A DNA stretch of 64,000 bases from Ignavibacteria bacterium (GTDB lineage Bacteria > Bacteroidota > Ignavibacteria > Kapaibacteriales > UBA4661). This document shows positions 9,108-62,788 of this stretch, piece after piece. Under the pieces are notes generated by a model. The model ran no database searches, was not told where the DNA came from, and worked only from the letters and a program-made list of their open reading frames with translations. A program made the position numbers and the translations under genes. Every line of letters begins with the position of its first letter. Positions within the stretch are counted from its first letter, which is position 1. The DNA is taken from positions 124,001-188,000 of the forward strand of contig JAAFIV010000002.1 in the NCBI GenBank assembly GCA_013298775.1, in the 5' to 3' direction.

Positions 9108-13028
<3,921 letters not shown>

Positions 13029-52922: not shown

Positions 52923-53303
52923 ACCTTCGTAAGCAAGAGCCTAAACATTGAACAAAGAGAACATCAAATGAGAACACAAAGATACAAAAAAATGGAAAAG
53001 CAGAATGAAATTTCTCACCCAAAACTCATCGTTTCTGCTTTTTCGCAGAAGGAATGAAGAATGTATCAGGTATTCAAGTACCTTTGCAAAATAAACTCCT
53101 CAATGCAAGGTATGAAGAGGGGTACAGCAGTTTAAAGGAGAATCGGCAGAACTCAGAAAAAGAGCGTTGAAGCAAGATATACTCTTGGATTGAGGGCAAT
53201 AAAAACGCTTGTACAATCTTCCTAAAATTGTTTGCCCTATCACCACAACAAACGGCATCCTTGCTCGTCAGTATTGATGCACTTTATCACCAATTTCAAT
53301 GCT
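52923..53303. other. 381-bp gap between divergent cysE and ABC ATPase genes
   Basis: A divergent intergenic region that must contain promoters for both directions. I see no repeat of the three interspersed families, no strong hairpin and no convincing promoter box. Short frames here show no family signature. Confidence 0.5.
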
Positions 53304-54005
53304 ATGAATCACCAACAAACCGCACCATTTGTTTCGCTCCAAAATCTCTCAAAATCCTACCGCGAAGGCGAGGTAACACGCACCGTGCTGAACCATACAA
53401 CACTGACCATCCAGAAGGCAGAAACTATCGCACTTCTCGGGAAAAGTGGTTCAGGAAAATCAACATTGCTCAATCTTCTTTCAGGAATTGACACGCCCGA
53501 TGAAGGCGAAGTAATTATTGATGGACGCAGCATTCATCAGCTTTCTGAGGAAGCGCGGACACTCTTTCGCAGAGAACATATCGGTTTCGTGTTTCAATTT
53601 TTCAATCTCATTCCCACGCTCACGGTCGAAGAAAACATCCTGCTTCCGCTTGAATTAAACAAACGCACTTCCCCCGCAGACCGCACGAATGCTCGTTCTT
53701 TGCTAGAGCGCGTCGGAATGGAATCGCGCCTCGCAGCTTTTCCCGATAAACTTTCTGGTGGCGAGCAGCAGCGCGTAGCTGTTGTTCGCGCATTAGTCCA
53801 CAAGCCGCTTCTTCTCTTGGCTGACGAACCAACAGGTAACCTTGACACCGAAAACGGCACACGTGTTCTCGCTCTGCTTTTGGAACTTTGCCGCGAACAA
53901 TCTACCACGCTGCTTATGGCAACACATAGCTTGGAAGCCGCATCAAAACTTGGTCGTGTGATTGTTGTGAAGGAAGGAAATATTGTGGAACAGGAACAAA
54001 CGTAA
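53304..54005 (+). CDS. LolD/MacB-type ABC transporter ATPase
   Basis: A 233-residue cytoplasmic ATPase of the MacB/LolD (3.A.1.122-125) type, which works with FtsX-fold permeases. Motifs: Walker A GKSGSGKST (46-54), Q-loop FVFQFFNLIPTLTV, signature LSGGEQQR (about 148-155), Walker B LLLLADEPTGNLD (about 166-178), and H-loop MATHSLE. The frame is open to 53232, but ATG 53304 (MNHQQT) is the family start. No permease gene is directly adjacent; the FtsX-type permeases at 21871-24366 and 60137-62788 are candidate partners. It ends next to a family-A hairpin and a convergent gene. Confidence 0.93.
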   Translation: MNHQQTAPFVSLQNLSKSYREGEVTRTVLNHTTLTIQKAETIALLGKSGSGKSTLLNLLSGIDTPDEGEVIIDGRSIHQLSEEARTLFRREHIGFVFQFFNLIPTLTVEENILLPLELNKRTSPADRTNARSLLERVGMESRLAAFPDKLSGGEQQRVAVVRALVHKPLLLLADEPTGNLDTENGTRVLALLLELCREQSTTLLMATHSLEAASKLGRVIVVKEGNIVEQEQT

Positions 54006-54086: not shown

Positions 54087-56321
54087 TTATTTGCTATTTT
54101 TTTTACCTTTAAGCGGTGGCGGCGCGTACATAAAGGGTACGCTTGTTTCCATAGAAACCGCACCAGACCGTGTTCCGTTCACAGGATTGCGCATGGCGGC
54201 ATTTACGCCAAAGGTAATCGTGCCAACCATTTCTTTCGGCTGCTTGAGCAGCAAGCTCCGTACCGTGAAGACCGCAGCATACACGCCATTTCCCTGCTCT
54301 TTCAGTTGCGAATCAATAAGTTCAACGTCTTGCGCATTTTCCAAACGAGCGTTCACAAGGCTGATATTATCTATGTTTTCGGGCGTTCCATATTTTGAAC
54401 CAACGTCAATCACGCCTGCGCTTAGTTGCAATCCGCCCACCGCAATTTTTAGTTCGCGCCATTCCCCCTCAACGCCAGTAACGGCGGCTTTTGTCAGGTC
54501 AATGTCTGGCTCGCGTTGTTTGATGGGCTGTTCGAGCTTGGGCAAAATTTCCACTTCCTCGCCCGTAAAGGGAGAAGTCCACGTACACCTCACCGCTACG
54601 AGCTTTGCCTTTGCTTCTAAGGGCTGTTTTGCTTGCAAACCAGTTGTGGGAGTAAGCGTCGGCGAACCTGTACTCAAGCCAATAAACGTCCGAAACTCGC
54701 TTGGTGGCACGGCTCCTGCACAATCTGGCTCCAAATTCACCGATAGCGTTCCACCGTAAAACATAGACTTCATGCGCCCTTCAAGACTTCTCCGATTTTG
54801 CGCCGTTAGCTGACTTGGGAAAATACTCAATTTTGTTTCTTGCACCGTCTCATCGCCCTGCGAGCTATGTTTGATGCGCACGGTGTAGCTTCCCGCCTTC
54901 AATACCTGCACCGCTTTTGCGGTAAATTCTACTGCTTTGCCTTTATCAAGAGTATTGACCGCATCATTGCTTGCGCTCAAGGCTTTTATCGTTTTCACGT
55001 CAGCATTTGTTTTTTCCGCGCTCGCAAGCATTGGTCGGGTTTCTGTGGCACGTTCAATCACAAGTGGCGTACTTGCGCCGTTTGCATCTATAATTTCACC
55101 TTTAGGAAAATTATTGCCGTAAAATGGTCCGGCGGTAAAGGTGAATTTTGGCGTGAGTTTGTCGAACAAATACACGTTTTGCGGCAGCGCGACATTCGCT
55201 TTCACAATGGCTACAGGCGGCTTCGTTACGCGGATATTGATTTCCATTGCACCAGAATTTTGCGCAAAATATCGTGATTTATTCGGCGCGAGCAGCTTTG
55301 CCATATCGCCATAGACATCAATTTTTCGCACAATGTCTTGCACCAAGGAAGCATCGTTTTCGCCACTTCTCTCCCGCTTCAATGCTGCCTTCGCGCTATC
55401 CAAGAGCGCGAAAAACTTCGCCGTTTCTTCTTCATTTTTCGCCGCAATAAGCGTGTTCATTGGCGGAACGTTATAGCTTTCCAGTTCGCGTTCCAGCATT
55501 TTCTGCACTTTGCGCAATTTTTTTACCGTCAGTTGCATTGCGCCAATATTTACTTTCGATTCGTCGGAAACCTCATCAAAGCTGGCTGCGTCGCCTCCTA
55601 CGCCCATGATGCGGTTTGTGCGCGAGGTGTAGCGCAGCTTGTACCAGCCTGCTTGCGTTGGCTGAAAATTGGTGGTAAAAATGCGCTTCAAGTAGCGTCC
55701 GCCCTTCTCCTCCGCCAATTTGTCGGTTTCTACCGCATTGTACGAAAAGACCGCGCCAGCAGCATTGGCGGAATACGTTGTGCAAGCAGCCTCGTTTTCC
55801 GCCTTGTACACGGGTGCTTTCCACGCAAGCGTTGATGCGGTGTCCAACACAAGCTCCATTGCCCCGACGCTGCGCCATGCGGCATCTTGCACTGGCACGT
55901 CGGTTGCGTCGTTTTGTAAAAATAAAATCTCATAGCGCAGGTGTTCGGCATTCGTGAGATGTTTCAGCAATGCAAGCGTTTGTGCGGTGTCTGCACCATT
56001 TGTTGCCATCAGTGCCGACGAGCCGTCATTCACACCAACTTCGATGTTATAGCTGCGATATTTTTTGTACGGAATGCCTGAAATCTTCACCGCTTCATCG
56101 CTCACAAGCGAGATTTCATCGTTGATGCGCGAGGTGAGGTTTTCATTTCCTGGACCAACCTGCATTTGTCCTAAAATGTCTTGAATTATTTCGCGGGCTT
56201 CACGCTCCCGCTTGCGTAAGTGGTCTTCCGCCTCATCGCGCTCAACAATAATGATGAGCAACTCCAGTATTACTGCGAGATACAAGACGAAATAGACCTT
56301 TCCTGCCGAGCCTTTAGACAT
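54087..56321 (-). CDS. Large single-anchor periplasmic protein, GldM-like architecture
   Basis: A 744-residue protein, not firmly recognised. One N-terminal membrane helix (VYFVLYLAVILELLIIIVE) leaves two or three residues in the cytoplasm and directs the rest outward. A charged helix follows (DHLRKREREAREIIQDIL), then a helical/mixed region to about 370 and beta-rich segments such as KANVALPQNVYLFDKLTPKF, FTAGPFYGNNFPKGEI and LKAGSYTVRIKHSS. GldM/PorM, the stator-like T9SS motor protein, has this plan (short cytoplasmic tail, one helix, helical then beta domains), but I see no specific GldM sequence signature. It is the last of four minus-strand membrane-protein genes (59833 to 54087) that look like a functional set. 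Confidence 0.6.
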   Translation of the reverse strand: MSKGSAGKVYFVLYLAVILELLIIIVERDEAEDHLRKREREAREIIQDILGQMQVGPGNENLTSRINDEISLVSDEAVKISGIPYKKYRSYNIEVGVNDGSSALMATNGADTAQTLALLKHLTNAEHLRYEILFLQNDATDVPVQDAAWRSVGAMELVLDTASTLAWKAPVYKAENEAACTTYSANAAGAVFSYNAVETDKLAEEKGGRYLKRIFTTNFQPTQAGWYKLRYTSRTNRIMGVGGDAASFDEVSDESKVNIGAMQLTVKKLRKVQKMLERELESYNVPPMNTLIAAKNEEETAKFFALLDSAKAALKRERSGENDASLVQDIVRKIDVYGDMAKLLAPNKSRYFAQNSGAMEINIRVTKPPVAIVKANVALPQNVYLFDKLTPKFTFTAGPFYGNNFPKGEIIDANGASTPLVIERATETRPMLASAEKTNADVKTIKALSASNDAVNTLDKGKAVEFTAKAVQVLKAGSYTVRIKHSSQGDETVQETKLSIFPSQLTAQNRRSLEGRMKSMFYGGTLSVNLEPDCAGAVPPSEFRTFIGLSTGSPTLTPTTGLQAKQPLEAKAKLVAVRCTWTSPFTGEEVEILPKLEQPIKQREPDIDLTKAAVTGVEGEWRELKIAVGGLQLSAGVIDVGSKYGTPENIDNISLVNARLENAQDVELIDSQLKEQGNGVYAAVFTVRSLLLKQPKEMVGTITFGVNAAMRNPVNGTRSGAVSMETSVPFMYAPPPLKGKKNSK

Positions 56322-56437
56322 AACGGTAAAAATTTGAAGTGGATAAATTTTGTTGTTTTGAAATGGCTGATTTTGTCATCAAGCAAAGTTTTCCCACTCG
56401 CTTGGAAAGACGCGCTTTCCAAGCGATAAAGTGTGTA

Positions 56438-56551
56438 TCTTCCCGTCCTACCGCTTCTCGGCGGTAGAACGGGTTTCACGGTAAAGTTCTTTTCCTGGAA
56501 ACCCGTGCGACGGCAGCGTTCTCGCACTCCTCAGCCGTCGGACGGGGAGAG
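56438..56551. repeat. Family-B MITE-like element (reverse orientation)
   Basis: 114 bp between TCTTCCCGTCC (56438-56448) and GGACGGGGAGAG (56540-56551). Its reverse complement lines up with 44429-44562 and 29772-29891, including GACGGCTGAGGAGTGCG and GAAACCCGTTCTACCG. It lies between two genes of the four-gene membrane cluster. Confidence 0.88.
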
Positions 56552-56616
56552 ACAGACGCAAGATTATTCGACAATGGCACTCCCAAACCCCTGTATTGAC
56601 GAGCTTTTGCGCTGTT

Positions 56617-58017
56617 TTACCCTTGCAGTGCAGCAACAACGCGATTTGTGATATTCTTGCTGATACGCTCCTGCATTTCTGGCGAGGCAGCGTGTTCTTT
56701 TGCTGCGCTCTCAAAAGCCCGCTCAATCACGCTTGGATTCACGCCTTGCACGAGACGAGCAACATCATTCATGCCGTGTTCGATGCGCTTTAAGGATTCA
56801 ATCCCGCTTGTTTCCTCGTGTTGAAAGGCAAGCGTTATTCCCAAAAGCAGGAGGAATGCGCACTCAAGCGAAATGGTTGCAAGTAGCACACTTGGACGCG
56901 AGGCGGGAATGAAGCGGAGTCCACGCAAGCCGACTGAAACAATCAGGAACGCCGCGCCGCAGTACGCCATGCCGCTCACCACATTTGCAAAACGCGGCAC
57001 AAAATATTCTTGCATAAAAAACCGCCACGCTGCATACAACCGCACTCTCTGGCGCGACCACGCCGCAACTTCCCGTAAATGCTGCATTCTAAGCGCGATT
57101 GCGGGCGAAAGCACTTCTGCCATACGCTGAAGACAATATGCCCGAAACAGCGCGTAGGAACTAGGCTGGAGCATTTTAGGATGGAATTTCCGCACATCGC
57201 TTTCCGACATTTTCCCACCAGCAACAACGTTCCAAAGCCGTTCAAAGCTCGATTCTATGCGGTTTGATTCACTCTTTGCGAGCAGCAACAGTTCTGCATC
57301 ACTAAGGCGCATCACATCGAGGTCTTCTTCGGAAAGCCCTGTCTGCATGGCAAGCGTGAAGCGGGTTTGGCGGATGGCGCGTTCTGCAAGGGCAGCAAGC
57401 AAGCCGATGTTACTTGGCAAAACGGCACTGAGCAGAAACATAAAGGCAAAGGAAAACGCTCCAAGCCCCAAACCAAGGGCGATTGCGGGCGTGAGCAAAA
57501 TTGCTTCTTCGCCAAGCGTTGGGGTTTTGATGTACCATTCCTGCGCGGATTTGGTGTAGCCGTGTTTCTCGAAAGTGCGGGATTCGCTCGTAAAATCGAA
57601 GATAAGTTCCCCACTTGTGAGGGCGCGTGAAATCTCTGGCGACGCTCCGATTTGTTGCAATCCAGCAGCATTGGGATTCGCAAAAACGCCTTGAAAATTC
57701 ACGAGCTGAAGTTCGGCAGGTTTCAAATTGTTGCGAGCAAATTTCTCGACCATTTCTGGCACAACAAATTTGTACAAGCCAGTAAACATCAGGCTTGCCG
57801 ACAAAAGAAGGACACAAAAAGGAAAAAAAAGCGACGGCTGTTTTTCGGGTTCTTGCTGTACCAAAGCAGCGTGAATACGGCTCTGCGCATCGTGTGCAGT
57901 GGGAGGAAAGACGGTTTGATGAGCAGAAGAATTGGCAAATACTTCCTCGTCTATTGTTTGAAAACGAGGTGTGGTGCGCTCTTCAGAGGAGTTGGGTGTT
58001 GATTGAACGGAAGACAT
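56617..58017 (-). CDS. Multi-pass membrane protein of unknown function
   Basis: A 466-residue protein, not recognised. A soluble N-terminus of about 65 residues is followed by a membrane helix (FPFCVLLLSASLMFTGLYKF), an extracytoplasmic loop of about 90 residues (ELIFDFTSESRTFEKHGYTK), a second helix (ALGLGLGAFSFAFMFLLSAV), a cytoplasmic helical domain of about 140 residues, and two further helices near 350-405 (VVSGMAYCGAAFLIVSVGLR and VLLATISLECAFLLLLGITL). The C-terminus is helical. The start ATG has AAGGTGG 5 nt upstream. It is the second-last gene of the four-gene membrane cluster. The design, with a large cytoplasmic domain between helices, is reminiscent of ion-driven motor or scaffold components, but that is speculation. 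Confidence 0.6.
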   Translation of the reverse strand: MSSVQSTPNSSEERTTPRFQTIDEEVFANSSAHQTVFPPTAHDAQSRIHAALVQQEPEKQPSLFFPFCVLLLSASLMFTGLYKFVVPEMVEKFARNNLKPAELQLVNFQGVFANPNAAGLQQIGASPEISRALTSGELIFDFTSESRTFEKHGYTKSAQEWYIKTPTLGEEAILLTPAIALGLGLGAFSFAFMFLLSAVLPSNIGLLAALAERAIRQTRFTLAMQTGLSEEDLDVMRLSDAELLLLAKSESNRIESSFERLWNVVAGGKMSESDVRKFHPKMLQPSSYALFRAYCLQRMAEVLSPAIALRMQHLREVAAWSRQRVRLYAAWRFFMQEYFVPRFANVVSGMAYCGAAFLIVSVGLRGLRFIPASRPSVLLATISLECAFLLLLGITLAFQHEETSGIESLKRIEHGMNDVARLVQGVNPSVIERAFESAAKEHAASPEMQERISKNITNRVVAALQG

Positions 58018-58258
58018 GAAGCCACCTTGTAAGAAAGGTCTGAAAATCGTGTGTTGGCGTTGTTCTCATCCACACGAGGCTCATGTTAGGCGTGAAGCGG
58101 TGTTCAGAGGAAGGGTATTGCGGAGGATGTTCTGCAGTGCATCTCTCAAATACAATAAAATCATACAGCAAATATCGGCATCAAACGGATAGTGGACGGT
58201 CAAACCGCGCATGAATGCTATTTAGGCGAGGCGTTTTTAATTGTCTCAATACAAAAAC

Positions 58259-58349
58259 TCTTCAGTAGTGGCACAGACATTCCTGTCTGTGAGTATCGAA
58301 GGAGATTCAGGCTGTACAACACAGACAAGAATGTCTGTGCCACTGAAGC
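58259..58349. repeat. Family-C palindromic repeat
   Basis: 25-bp arms at 58267-58291 and 58320-58344 with one mismatch; each arm is itself a palindrome (CACAGACATTCCTGTCTGTG). The arms extend outward through CTTCAGT/ACTGAAG. It lies in the 706-bp gap between two membrane-cluster genes; apart from a possible 30-codon frame (58397-58489) I see nothing else there. It is closely similar to 59951-60027. Confidence 0.88.
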
Positions 58350-58396
58350 CTAATTCCATTTGGCTTGAAAAAGTTAAATATAAGACTAAAATAATT

Positions 58397-58489
58397 TTAC
58401 AAAATTGCTTCAATCGCACCAATAGCCAGCAAACCAAGCAATACGATGATAATTCGTGTGGACAGAACAACGGGTCGAAACTGTGGCAT
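58397..58489 (-). CDS. Possible 30-residue single-helix membrane peptide
   Basis: ATG 58489 to TAA 58397 encodes 30 residues starting MPQFRPVVLSTR, followed by a hydrophobic stretch IIIVLLGLLAIGAIEAIL up to the stop. The shape (short positively charged N-terminus, one membrane helix) is that of a small membrane protein, and the frame is closed by an in-frame TGA just upstream. No ribosome-binding site is visible, and the length alone could arise by chance, so support is weak. It lies within the gap between two genes of the membrane cluster, on the same strand. Confidence 0.25.
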   Translation of the reverse strand: MPQFRPVVLSTRIIIVLLGLLAIGAIEAIL

Positions 58490-58723
58490 TTGTGTCGTTC
58501 AAAAGTGTGAACATTGTTTGTTATGCCAACAATATGACCAAAAGTCATGCCAAGAATTTTTACTCGAAGCAAAGCTCGATTTTATGCGGCTTTCAAGCAC
58601 TGCTTTTCATTTCGTGATGAAAATTGCACAAAAACTAGGCATTTTTTTCGCAGAAGTGTCAAGCAAAAGTGTCAGGCAAACTTGACAAATTTTTCCTTCA
58701 ACGCGGCACGGTTGCTTGGTTTT

Positions 58724-59242
58724 CTAGTGAAGATTTTTCACAAAATAGGTCTTGACGTAATCTTTCACAAAATCAAACATGATAACCAGCGATGCCACGC
58801 TCATCAGGAAACACGCCGCAAAGATGTACTTTTCCGTCGTGTGATTGATAGCAATAAGCCGCTCTGGAAGGCGAATTGCTTGTGTGCCGATTTCCATAAA
58901 CAAGCCAAAAAGCAACAGCCCCATGCCGTTGTGATGCGCCACTTCATTCATGTAAATTTCCGCCGCGTCGGTTTCTTCCTTGTGCGCATTGATTTTGCGC
59001 AAGGTTTCGCGCTCCTCGAAAAATACGCCCGCCGCAACGAGGATTCCTGCCAATCCGTCAATCAATTCCTCGATTTCATCCAGTTGCGCGTCGCTTGGCT
59101 CGACAAACCAGAAATTGCGCAGAAAATGCCACTGTTCGGCAATCATTGGTATAGAGATAGCAAACAACAAGCCGCCAAGTACGATAAACATTGGGCGCGA
59201 GGTGATTGCCACAAAAAAGGTATTGAGTATGCGAGCTATCAT
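58724..59242 (-). CDS. Small multi-pass membrane protein of unknown function
   Basis: A 172-residue inner-membrane protein with about four hydrophobic helices: PMFIVLGGLLFAISIPMIAE, a semi-hydrophobic IDGLAGILVAAGVFFEE, GMGLLLFGLFMEIGTQAIRL and IFAACFLMSVASLVIMFDFV. A charged helical segment (RETLRKINAHKEETDAAEIY) lies between. No family is recognised. It is followed (on the minus strand) after a 706-bp gap with a family-C repeat by the 466-residue membrane gene, and it lies 48 bp downstream of the 180-residue gene, so those two are likely co-transcribed. The start lacks a clear ribosome-binding site. Confidence 0.62.
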   Translation of the reverse strand: MIARILNTFFVAITSRPMFIVLGGLLFAISIPMIAEQWHFLRNFWFVEPSDAQLDEIEELIDGLAGILVAAGVFFEERETLRKINAHKEETDAAEIYMNEVAHHNGMGLLLFGLFMEIGTQAIRLPERLIAINHTTEKYIFAACFLMSVASLVIMFDFVKDYVKTYFVKNLH

Positions 59243-59290
59243 AATGAAAGGATGAAATAGGAATGATGAGGGCTGAAAGTTTAGTGAAAG

Positions 59291-59833
59291 CTAGATTTCA
59301 CCGAGCTTCCAGTTAATGATTCGTTCTTGTAAATCGGCACGAAGCGCGTCTTTTACTGCCGCATAGAGCTTTTCTTCATCGCGCTCAGAAAGGTGTTCGC
59401 CTGTGGATTTACGCCGTTCCACGAAGGCTTCTGCAATGGGCGCGAGATGGCGAAACACACGCAATTTTTCCGCCGCTTTGCCCGCAGTAAACGTTCCAGC
59501 ATTGATTTTTCCCGCAAGCCCGTCTATTTCTGGCTTCAGGATGACTAAAATATCGTCAATAATGGCATTGATTTGAGCAGAACTTTGTGGAAGTGCGCTC
59601 TGTTCCTGTGTTTGTGCGGTGTCATTCTGCGGCAATTTTTCGAGCTTTTCTTGCTCCAAGAGAAAGAGAGCTTTTTGCTTGTCGAGATAGGTCAGGTAAT
59701 GCTCTTCCATATCGCCCAGCAACCCTTGTGGCTCGGAAAGCGCAGGAAAGCTGAATTTCTTGCCAACATAGCCAGCAATGCCGAGAATAACACCTAGCCC
59801 GATAATAGCTTCAACAAGTGTAATCATATTCAA
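59291..59833 (-). CDS. Single-helix membrane protein with coiled-coil cytoplasmic part
   Basis: A 180-residue protein, not recognised. The N-terminal helix is LVEAIIGLGVILGIAGYVG; the rest is charged and helical (YLDKQKALFLLEQEKLEKLP, DDILVILKPEIDGLAGKI, AAEKLRVFRHLAPIAEAFVE, KLYAAVKDALRADLQERI), suggesting a coiled-coil or bundle that binds partners at the membrane. It is the first gene of the four-gene membrane cluster. The upstream region carries a 12-bp tandem repeat (59845-59885). Two starts are possible (59833 and, two codons later, 59827). Confidence 0.6.
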   Translation of the reverse strand: MNMITLVEAIIGLGVILGIAGYVGKKFSFPALSEPQGLLGDMEEHYLTYLDKQKALFLLEQEKLEKLPQNDTAQTQEQSALPQSSAQINAIIDDILVILKPEIDGLAGKINAGTFTAGKAAEKLRVFRHLAPIAEAFVERRKSTGEHLSERDEEKLYAAVKDALRADLQERIINWKLGEI

Positions 59834-60027: not shown

Positions 60028-60136
60028 ATGAAAGAAATGTTATCGTGTACATAAGACGACGAACAATCAGGCTCTAAAATGCGCATTCGCCAGCGATTTG
60101 ACAAATAAAAACATACCTTTCTTCCCTACACACCGC

Positions 60137-62788
60137 ATGAATACTCTCTTTCGCTCTTCTTTTCGGTATTTTCTTCGGCATCCTTGGCAGTTAGCATTAT
60201 CCGTGCTTGGCGTTGCGCTGGGCGTGGCAATCGTTATCGCTATTGACCTTGCAAACACCAGCGCACGTGCGGCTTTCGAGCAATCCTCCAATGGCGTGAG
60301 CGGAAAAGCGACGCACCACATTGTGGGCAGCACAAATGGCTTTGCCGATAGCATTTATGCGACGTTGAAGACTTCCCCGCTTCCAGCATCCGTTTCTACG
60401 TTTCGCGCCGCGCCCGTTGTGGAAGGGAATGTGATAGTTGTGAAGAAAGGCGCACAATCAAATTCCCCAAAAACCGCACAACAACAGGTTTTCAAGGTTT
60501 TTGGAATTGATATTTTCGCCGAGCGCGATTTCCGTACCTTTCTCAACACCAACAGCAACGCCCGTAACTTCGACCTCGCACCCTTTTTTACCCAGAAAAA
60601 TGCGTGTGTGCTGTCCTCACAAACCGCATCGGAACTAGGCTTGCGCATTGGCGATACGCTTCAGATACAGCGTGGTGGAAAAACCTATTTCGCGCTTCTT
60701 GTCGGGACAATCACACCAAGCGACGAAGCCAGTAAACGTGCGCTTTCCAGCCTCCTTGTGTGTGATATTTCCACTGCGCAAGAACTCTTGGAAATGCAGG
60801 GAAAACTTTCGCGGATTGACCTTATTCTGCAAAACACCCCAGAAGCTGAAGAGTTCACAATTACTGGCTTGCAAGCCTTTTTACCAAACGGCTGCGAAAT
60901 CACTCGCTCGCAAGCCCGCCCCAAGCGCATCGCAGATATGGCGCGAGCTTTCGACCTCAATCTCACCGCGCTCAGTCTTCTCGCGCTCATCGTGGGCTTG
61001 TTCATTATTTTCAATGCAATGACGTTTTCCGTCGTGCAACGCCGGCAATATATCGGGATGCTGCGGCTTATCGGAACGACGCAGAAGCAAGTATTTGTGC
61101 TGATTCTGGGCGAGGCGTTGGTGATTGGGCTCGTTGGCACCATTCTCGGTCTCGCGCTCGGCATTATTCTTGGAAATGGCTTCGTGCGGCTCATTGCGCA
61201 GACTATCAACGATTTGTACTTTACCGTGCAGGTGAGCGGTTTGGAAATTTCGCCACTTGTTTTGTTGAAAGGCGCACTGCTCGGCACGTTTGGGGTGATT
61301 GGCGCAGCACTGCTTCCCGCCCGCGAAGCCACACAAACGCCGCCACGCCTTGTTTTGAACCGCTCACAGGCGGAACAGCGCATTCTCTCTCGTGTGTGGG
61401 TGTATGCGGGGCTTGGTGTTGTGGCAATCGGCGTGGGCGTGGCGTGGCTGATGTACCCAAGTGCGAGCATTTATGCGGGATATGCGGGCTTGCTTCCGGT
61501 GATTATCGGCTTTGCCTTGCTCGTACCACTTGTAACACTTGCTTTTGTGCGAATTTTCCAGCCGATACTCCGCCAAACATCAGGTTTTATCGGCAGTATG
61601 GCGGTGCGTGGCATTGCAACGTCGCTTTCGCGGACAGGTATTGCGATTGCTTCGCTGATGGTGGCTGTTTCGGCAACGATTGGCGTGGGCGTGATGGTCA
61701 ATTCCTTTCGGCAAACGGTCGTAGAATGGCTTACCTACACGCTTACAGCCGATATTTACATTTCCCCGCCAAGTCTCATTGCGCGGCGCGGCGATGCTGT
61801 TATTGATTCCATTGCTCTACACCGCATCACTACTCATCCGCACGTGCAGGAATGGACAAGTTTTCGGACGATTCTTGCCGAAGCACATTTCCCCGAACAA
61901 GGACAATTTCTCACAAGCAACACCGCTCAAAACAAGGAAACACGCCTTGTACAGGTTCTCACAACGAATCTCAGTCCCAGCACGGCAAAGCGATTTCATT
62001 TCAAAGAAACCGATGACAAACGCCTCGTCTGGGAGCAGTTTCGGCGCGGCGAAGCGATTATTTCCGAAGCATTTTCCTTCAAAAACAAGATTGTGTGCGG
62101 CGACAGCGTAGAAATGAGTACTGATGCGGGTTTGAAGCGAGTGCGCGTCTGCGGGATTTACTACGAATATGCGTCGGATATTGGGATTATCGTGCTGGAA
62201 CGCAGTATTTACAATGCTTTCTGGAATGACCGCACCAATTCTGGCATCAGTATTTTTGTAAAAAATGGCATTCAGCCCGACAGTTTGATTCACGATTTGC
62301 AACTTCTCACCAGCGACCGCCAAGAGCTGAACATACGGTCAAATCGTGCGTTGCTGGCAACATCGCTGGAAATTTTCGACCGCACCTTTGCCATTACCGA
62401 CGTGCTTCGCTTGCTCACGATTTTTGTTTCGTTTGTGGGTGTTTTATCAGCACTGATGGCATTGCAGTTCGAGAAGGCGCGTGAAATCGGGGTTTTGAGG
62501 GCAAATGGCGTAACGCCGCGTCAGGTCTGGCTTTTGACGACCATTCAAACAACGCTTATCGGCTTGCTTGCAGGGATTCTCGCCCTTCCAATGGGCATTA
62601 TTCTCGCGCTCACGCTGATTTACGTCATCAACCAACGCTCGTTTGGGTGGAGTTTGCAGTTTTTTATGTCGCCTGAGATATTGCTTCAAGCCGTGATGTT
62701 ATCTATTGTTGCGGCGTTTTTGGCAGGATTATACCCAGCGTGGAAAAGCTCGCGCATCGCTCCAGCACTGGCGTTGCGGGAAGAATAA
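60137..62788 (+). CDS. Large FtsX-domain ABC transporter permease
   Basis: An 883-residue permease of the 10-helix type. The N-terminal helix (LALSVLGVALGVAIVIAIDL) is followed by a long periplasmic region, then a first FtsX unit (NLTALSLLALIVGLFIIFNA, RRQYIGMLRLIGTTQKQVFV), a middle helix pair (ARTCRLL-type region replaced here by LPVIIGFALLVPLVTLAFVR), a second periplasmic region, and a second FtsX unit (FAITDVLRLLTIFVSFVGVL, KAREIGVLRANGVTPRQVWL), ending APALALREE. This is the AttF/G-like or YbbP-like permease form, often encoded with a LolD-type ATPase and an AttH/CrtC protein and believed to move lipids. ATG 60137 fits better than TTG 60098. The ATPase at 53304 is the nearest candidate partner. 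Confidence 0.9.
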   Translation: MNTLFRSSFRYFLRHPWQLALSVLGVALGVAIVIAIDLANTSARAAFEQSSNGVSGKATHHIVGSTNGFADSIYATLKTSPLPASVSTFRAAPVVEGNVIVVKKGAQSNSPKTAQQQVFKVFGIDIFAERDFRTFLNTNSNARNFDLAPFFTQKNACVLSSQTASELGLRIGDTLQIQRGGKTYFALLVGTITPSDEASKRALSSLLVCDISTAQELLEMQGKLSRIDLILQNTPEAEEFTITGLQAFLPNGCEITRSQARPKRIADMARAFDLNLTALSLLALIVGLFIIFNAMTFSVVQRRQYIGMLRLIGTTQKQVFVLILGEALVIGLVGTILGLALGIILGNGFVRLIAQTINDLYFTVQVSGLEISPLVLLKGALLGTFGVIGAALLPAREATQTPPRLVLNRSQAEQRILSRVWVYAGLGVVAIGVGVAWLMYPSASIYAGYAGLLPVIIGFALLVPLVTLAFVRIFQPILRQTSGFIGSMAVRGIATSLSRTGIAIASLMVAVSATIGVGVMVNSFRQTVVEWLTYTLTADIYISPPSLIARRGDAVIDSIALHRITTHPHVQEWTSFRTILAEAHFPEQGQFLTSNTAQNKETRLVQVLTTNLSPSTAKRFHFKETDDKRLVWEQFRRGEAIISEAFSFKNKIVCGDSVEMSTDAGLKRVRVCGIYYEYASDIGIIVLERSIYNAFWNDRTNSGISIFVKNGIQPDSLIHDLQLLTSDRQELNIRSNRALLATSLEIFDRTFAITDVLRLLTIFVSFVGVLSALMALQFEKAREIGVLRANGVTPRQVWLLTTIQTTLIGLLAGILALPMGIILALTLIYVINQRSFGWSLQFFMSPEILLQAVMLSIVAAFLAGLYPAWKSSRIAPALALREE

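Follow-up and report, generated by a model that had tools for sequence, protein, structure and literature searches.

Four consecutive minus-strand genes at positions 54087–59833 of the window, by which we mean the whole stretch of 64,000 nucleotides analyzed here (positions 124001–188000 of its contig, in a genome of 5.2 Mb), raise the question of whether they encode a single envelope machine and, if so, of what kind. The original prediction, made from the letters alone, held that four membrane proteins of no nameable family were encoded here and might form one undescribed system. An open reading frame (ORF) check confirmed the positions and lengths of the four genes, whose products of 744, 466, 172, and 180 amino acids are referred to as A744, B466, C172, and D180. 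Transmembrane (TM) prediction gave one helix in A744, four in B466, three in C172, and one in D180, in agreement with the proposed single-helix D180, multi-pass C172 and B466, and A744 with one N-terminal helix. None of the four has a match in Pfam or NCBIfam, and PADLOC also returned none, so the view that no family could be named was borne out. A Zorya-type (ZorAB) defence motor was considered and rejected, PADLOC having matched none of the four proteins. The start of D180 is called at a TTG codon, and an ATG codon sits two codons further in. Measured against the sister species by the Nei-Gojobori method, dN/dS was ~0.05 for A744, ~0.11 for B466, and ~0.085 for D180, indicating that purifying selection acts on these three genes. 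Genes for an ABC ATPase and an FtsX/MacB-like permease, at 53232–54005 and 60098–62788 on the plus strand, flank the four.

The membership of the putative system was examined in relatives from the same family, which are deposited as Candidatus Kapaibacterium and Ignavibacteria metagenome-assembled genomes. The gene for B466 (56617–58017, minus strand) lies directly upstream of that for A744 (54087–56321, minus strand), and the two are linked in the same order in seven family genomes: that of the window, five others, and G002, in which both relatives share one 3.3 kb contig whose end cuts the A gene. By contrast, no relative of C172 (58724–59242, minus strand) was found in any relative locus examined, the sister species included, and the only relative found of D180 (59291–59833, minus strand) is that of the sister species G005, to which it is 90.6% identical; in G005, no C172 gene separates the D180 and B466 genes. 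Because D180 is confined to the sister species and C172 occurs nowhere else, the conserved unit is B466–A744. Therefore, the four-gene system is ruled out: the expected conservation of gene order held for the pair and failed for C172 and D180, which are unrelated neighbors of it. In the family loci, the genes conserved next to the pair include none for a secreted or outer-membrane partner. Elsewhere in the window (9108–13028, plus strand) lies a gene for a protein of 1306 aa. The C-terminus of this protein, which matches FlgD-like domains as well as the last part of the PorU model, is a possible sorting signal for type IX secretion.

The pair is a branch of something larger. Homologs of A744 were detected in 60/61 genomes of the order, and B profile matches were likewise found in 60/61. 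The B profile finds three classes of protein: class 1 (~450 aa, four TM helices), class 2 (~340 aa, four TM helices), and class 3 (~270 aa, two TM helices), the last encoded immediately next to a single-helix membrane protein of 490 aa. This M-like class-3 partner (~490 aa) was present in all 21 order genomes sampled, and the class-3 pair is almost confined to the order; examples are L188:6151–8408, L191:5476–7760, L197:7408–9694, and L200:7599–9882, with the copy of the window genome itself on C45. Class-2 proteins adjoin large AAA ATPase proteins at L190:6671–12456 and L194:5188–8287, and in G008 (L202, L203) they instead lie directly upstream of A-like genes. In separate trees the window type has a single origin (SH-aLRT 100 for A and 95 for B), and the two trees, that for A being a quick tree, branch identically: (G009,((G000,G005),(G007,(G006,G001)))), where G000 is the genome of the window. 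Window-type A and B both fall outside the clades of the core copies, so the pair is either an ancient duplicate or was acquired by transfer, and is no recent copy. G003 and G004 have no window-type A, though core A is present. Judged from these sequences, A744 and B466 are extra copies of order-wide families, restricted to one Kapabacteria family. The idea of a single undescribed system thus did not survive: what the window holds is one more copy of an order-wide A/B family, and a second GldL/GldM-like pair is present in these same genomes.

The genomic setting of the core copies is linked to the type IX secretion system (T9SS). A PorU-like T9SS sortase adjoins core B in 15 genomes from 5 families; this neighbor is a large gene with a C25 peptidase, and its match to the PorU model (E 1e-60) is below the curated cut-off. 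Core A adjoins SprA (TIGR04189, E 2e-286) in one genome, G053. Core A lies elsewhere in the genome and typically precedes genes for two unrecognized secreted proteins (~575 and ~460 aa) and then a VWA-OmpA protein, an operon that occurs across the order (L034:8082–15866, from the window genome itself, contig C23; L038:2880–9707; L041; L052; and others). By eye, the C-termini of the two secreted proteins look outer-membrane-like. SprA was present in 51/51 class genomes sampled, and the GldM model TIGR03517 scored over its cut-off in 0/51 of them and in 4/4 Bacteroidia controls. Likewise, no protein of the window genome scored over the cut-off of the GldL model TIGR03513. Searches of the open-access literature turned up no description of a GldLM counterpart from either Kapabacteria or Ignavibacteria.

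Relatives were also found in other orders of the class. In eight such genomes, a B-like gene (160–355 aa) immediately precedes an A-like gene, which encodes 186–222 aa in seven and 428 aa in one. The A-like gene is usually followed by a gene for a ~365-aa secreted protein and by pairs of genes for ~500- and ~460-aa proteins. At L216–L223 the M-like protein is mostly ~200 aa with a separate ~365-aa secreted protein, as if the shaft had been split into two genes. Models of these short L and short M proteins matched an identical set of 31/51 class genomes and 0/4 Bacteroidia, and this co-occurrence argues for a functional pair. Outside the order, 20/30 class genomes have SprA and neither L nor M, which indicates that the A/B-type family does not serve as the T9SS motor throughout the class. 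In these genomes (G064, G079, G089, G093, G097, G104, and 14 more), no GldM scored over the cut-off and the L, M, and class-3 partner models gave nothing significant.

We then consider what kind of protein A744 is. The best-conserved part of the A family is the TM helix (residues 9–27; 56241–56297, minus strand), rather than the immunoglobulin (Ig)-like domains. It lies inside a near-invariant N-terminal block, MSKGxAGKVYFVLYLAVILELLIIIVERDEAE, and its in-membrane Glu20 (56262–56264, minus strand) is kept in 85/85 aligned homologs. An AlphaFold2 model built from 24 homologs (mean pLDDT 80.8), from which the domain borders were taken, shows a long N-terminal helix at residues 5–53 followed by four predicted periplasmic domains. 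Domain 1 (residues 58–366; 55224–56150, minus strand) is predicted to be mostly beta and Ig-like, as judged from the model and VIA-align matches, with a helical insert at ~266–344, and domains 2–4 (residues 370–504, 507–611, and 613–734; 54120–55214, minus strand) are predicted to be Ig-like. The proposed helical-then-beta layout was therefore roughly right; the correction is that the first domain is modelled as mostly beta with a helical insert, followed by three Ig-like domains.

A search of the A744 model with Foldseek and VIA-align returned a list filled by Ig-like chains, with solved GldM/PorM not among the best 50 matches, and a PDB sequence search with the A and B profiles gave chance matches only. 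These generic Ig-like matches would suit an alternative in which there is no motor, A744 being a periplasmic Ig-like scaffold or adhesin on one helix and B466 its membrane partner; the poor model of B466 (pLDDT 60), for which no fold match was found, points the same way. Against it, the best-conserved part of A is the TM helix carrying Glu20 and not the Ig-like domains, and the membrane glutamate of B, kept without exception in three related families, aligns with E49 of GldL; we regard this alternative as unlikely.

The link of B466 to GldL was evaluated by profile–profile comparison with hhalign using larger alignments; unrelated families and reversed alignments served as controls, and all gave E-values of 0.014 or worse. 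The predicted TM helices of B466 span residues 63–81, 178–196, 344–362, and 377–395, of which TM3 and TM4 form a hairpin (344–395; 56833–56988, minus strand), a putative GldL-like motor module. Core B did not match GldL directly at a significant level (E 0.097). It matched short L (probability 99.4%, E 5e-21) and class-3 L (97%, E 1e-11), and these in turn matched GldL, with class-3 L giving the best profile match to GldL (70%, E 4e-5) and short L following (53%, E 1.4e-4). Thus, on the strength of these alignments, the TM3–TM4 hairpin of B connects to GldL through two intermediate families. In both the class-3 and the short-L alignments, a TM glutamate is paired with E49 of GldL, and this glutamate is kept throughout (class 1, 37/37; class 3, 17/17; short L, 8/8; GldL, 19/19). 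In B466 it is Glu385 (56863–56865), aligned with E49 via the intermediate families. E49 of GldL is strictly conserved and is essential in Flavobacterium johnsoniae (PMC8986121).

The corresponding comparison of A with GldM gave a weak match (16%, E 0.0016 over 185 columns; reversed A, E 0.28), in which the last two domains of A pair with D2–D3 of GldM; with few sequences, hhalign gave no match between A and GldM. The class-3 partner matched GldM at 22% and E 0.001. As Ig-like sandwiches resemble each other, both matches are suggestive only. An HMM search of the ORFs with the GldM model was set aside, since it also ranked GldL proteins highly, and the PDB match tables of class-3 and short L were not used as evidence because the coiled-coil tail drives many of the matches. 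The original prediction had proposed a search against GldL and GldM: its outcome was positive for the intermediates, not significant for core B itself, and weak for A.

The same profiles bear on whether A744 and B466 belong to the ExbB–ExbD, TolQ–TolR, or MotA–MotB line rather than to the GldLM line. The four-TM layout of B466 is MotA-like, and an acidic residue within the membrane helix of A744 recalls MotB. Nevertheless, the B, class-3, and short-L profiles matched no MotA, ExbB, or TolQ family and no solved member in Pfam, NCBIfam, or the PDB sequences, the sole motor chain among the matches listed was GldL (7sax, E 0.034, via its coil), and A744 has no peptidoglycan-binding domain. We therefore consider this assignment improbable.

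Taken together, B466 and A744 probably constitute a divergent GldL/GldM-type membrane motor made of a ring and an axle, present as an accessory copy in one Kapabacteria family, a reading to which we assign a probability of about 0.64. In our best reading, the pair is a proton motor that works like GldLM and lies outside the GldL and GldM families as curated. The divergent GldM-like motor of the original prediction thus finds support for A744 and B466, through the four-domain layout, the T9SS linkage of the core copies, the L-then-M gene order, and the profile links to GldL, and falls away for C172 and D180.

GldLM provides the model for a ring around two axle helices, with proton flow and torque or swing along the shaft (PMC9389320), and from it we infer the stoichiometry, proton coupling, rotation, and outer-membrane partner of B466/A744, as well as its service to secretion or to another task. 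The TM3–TM4 hairpins of several B466 subunits (five, if GldL5M2 is a guide) would assemble into an inner-membrane ring, and the N-terminal helices of two A744 molecules would occupy its pore. Protons may enter via B466 Glu385, perhaps also via A744 Glu20, and the protonation cycle of these glutamates would turn or swing the A744 dimer. The four-domain periplasmic shaft could then pass this motion to outer-membrane partners belonging to the type IX machinery or to a related surface apparatus.

Which process is driven is less certain. A/B may power some envelope process outside type IX secretion: a gliding track, upkeep of the outer membrane, or export by way of the S/N/OmpA-domain proteins whose genes adjoin core A. 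On this view the T9SS would be driven by the separate class-3 L/M pair. At somewhat below even odds, this is a serious alternative. The class-3 partner occurs in every sampled Kapabacteria genome, the sizes of the pair (~270 and 490 aa) are near those of GldL and GldM, and it is class-3 L, not core B, that best matches GldL; moreover, A/B-type genes are patchy in other orders while SprA is universal, and core A precedes the two unrecognized secreted proteins and the VWA-OmpA protein. Set against this are the PorU-like gene beside core B in 15 genomes and SprA beside core A in one. In addition, the class-3 pair hardly occurs outside the order and leaves secretion there equally unexplained.

A broader and more speculative proposal, which we hold to be rather doubtful, is that Kapabacteria and some Ignavibacteria harbor a separate lineage of proton-driven ring-and-axle machines, with carboxylates in both ring and axle helices, axles of ~190–820 residues, and several paralogs per cell, and that the copy in the window drives some process of the envelope distinct from classical type IX secretion. 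With SprA in every class genome sampled and no motor found by the curated GldM model, the A/B pair and its relatives are candidates for the missing energy source in Kapabacteria. They may also extend the family of ring-and-axle motors driven by protons, and the differing lengths of their axle proteins form a natural series in which to study how motors of this kind span the periplasm.

Compared with known systems, B466 resembles GldL/PorL in its hairpin with an invariant glutamate in the second helix, aligned with E49, in its cytoplasmic tail, and in the position of its gene directly upstream of an M-like gene; it differs in its long loops and in two additional TM helices on the N-terminal side, and although the L-then-M order is present, no recognized gldK or gldN adjoins the pair or its relatives. 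A744 resembles GldM/PorM in having one N-terminal TM helix and, in the AlphaFold2 model, four periplasmic domains. However, it is longer (744 versus ~520 aa), carries Glu20 within the TM helix, and is not matched by TIGR03517. D1 of GldM is all-helical, with five helices (PMC5790014), whereas the modelled D1 of A744 has an Ig-like fold, interrupted by a helical insert, in place of five up-and-down helices. As the curated models fail and D1 differs, we do not file A744/B466 as GldLM. Unlike MotAB, ExbBD, and TolQR, the 5:2 motors, the pair has no peptidoglycan-binding OmpA domain on its axle protein A744; it shares with them the proposed ring-plus-axle logic and, in the axle helix, an in-membrane acidic residue like that of MotB.
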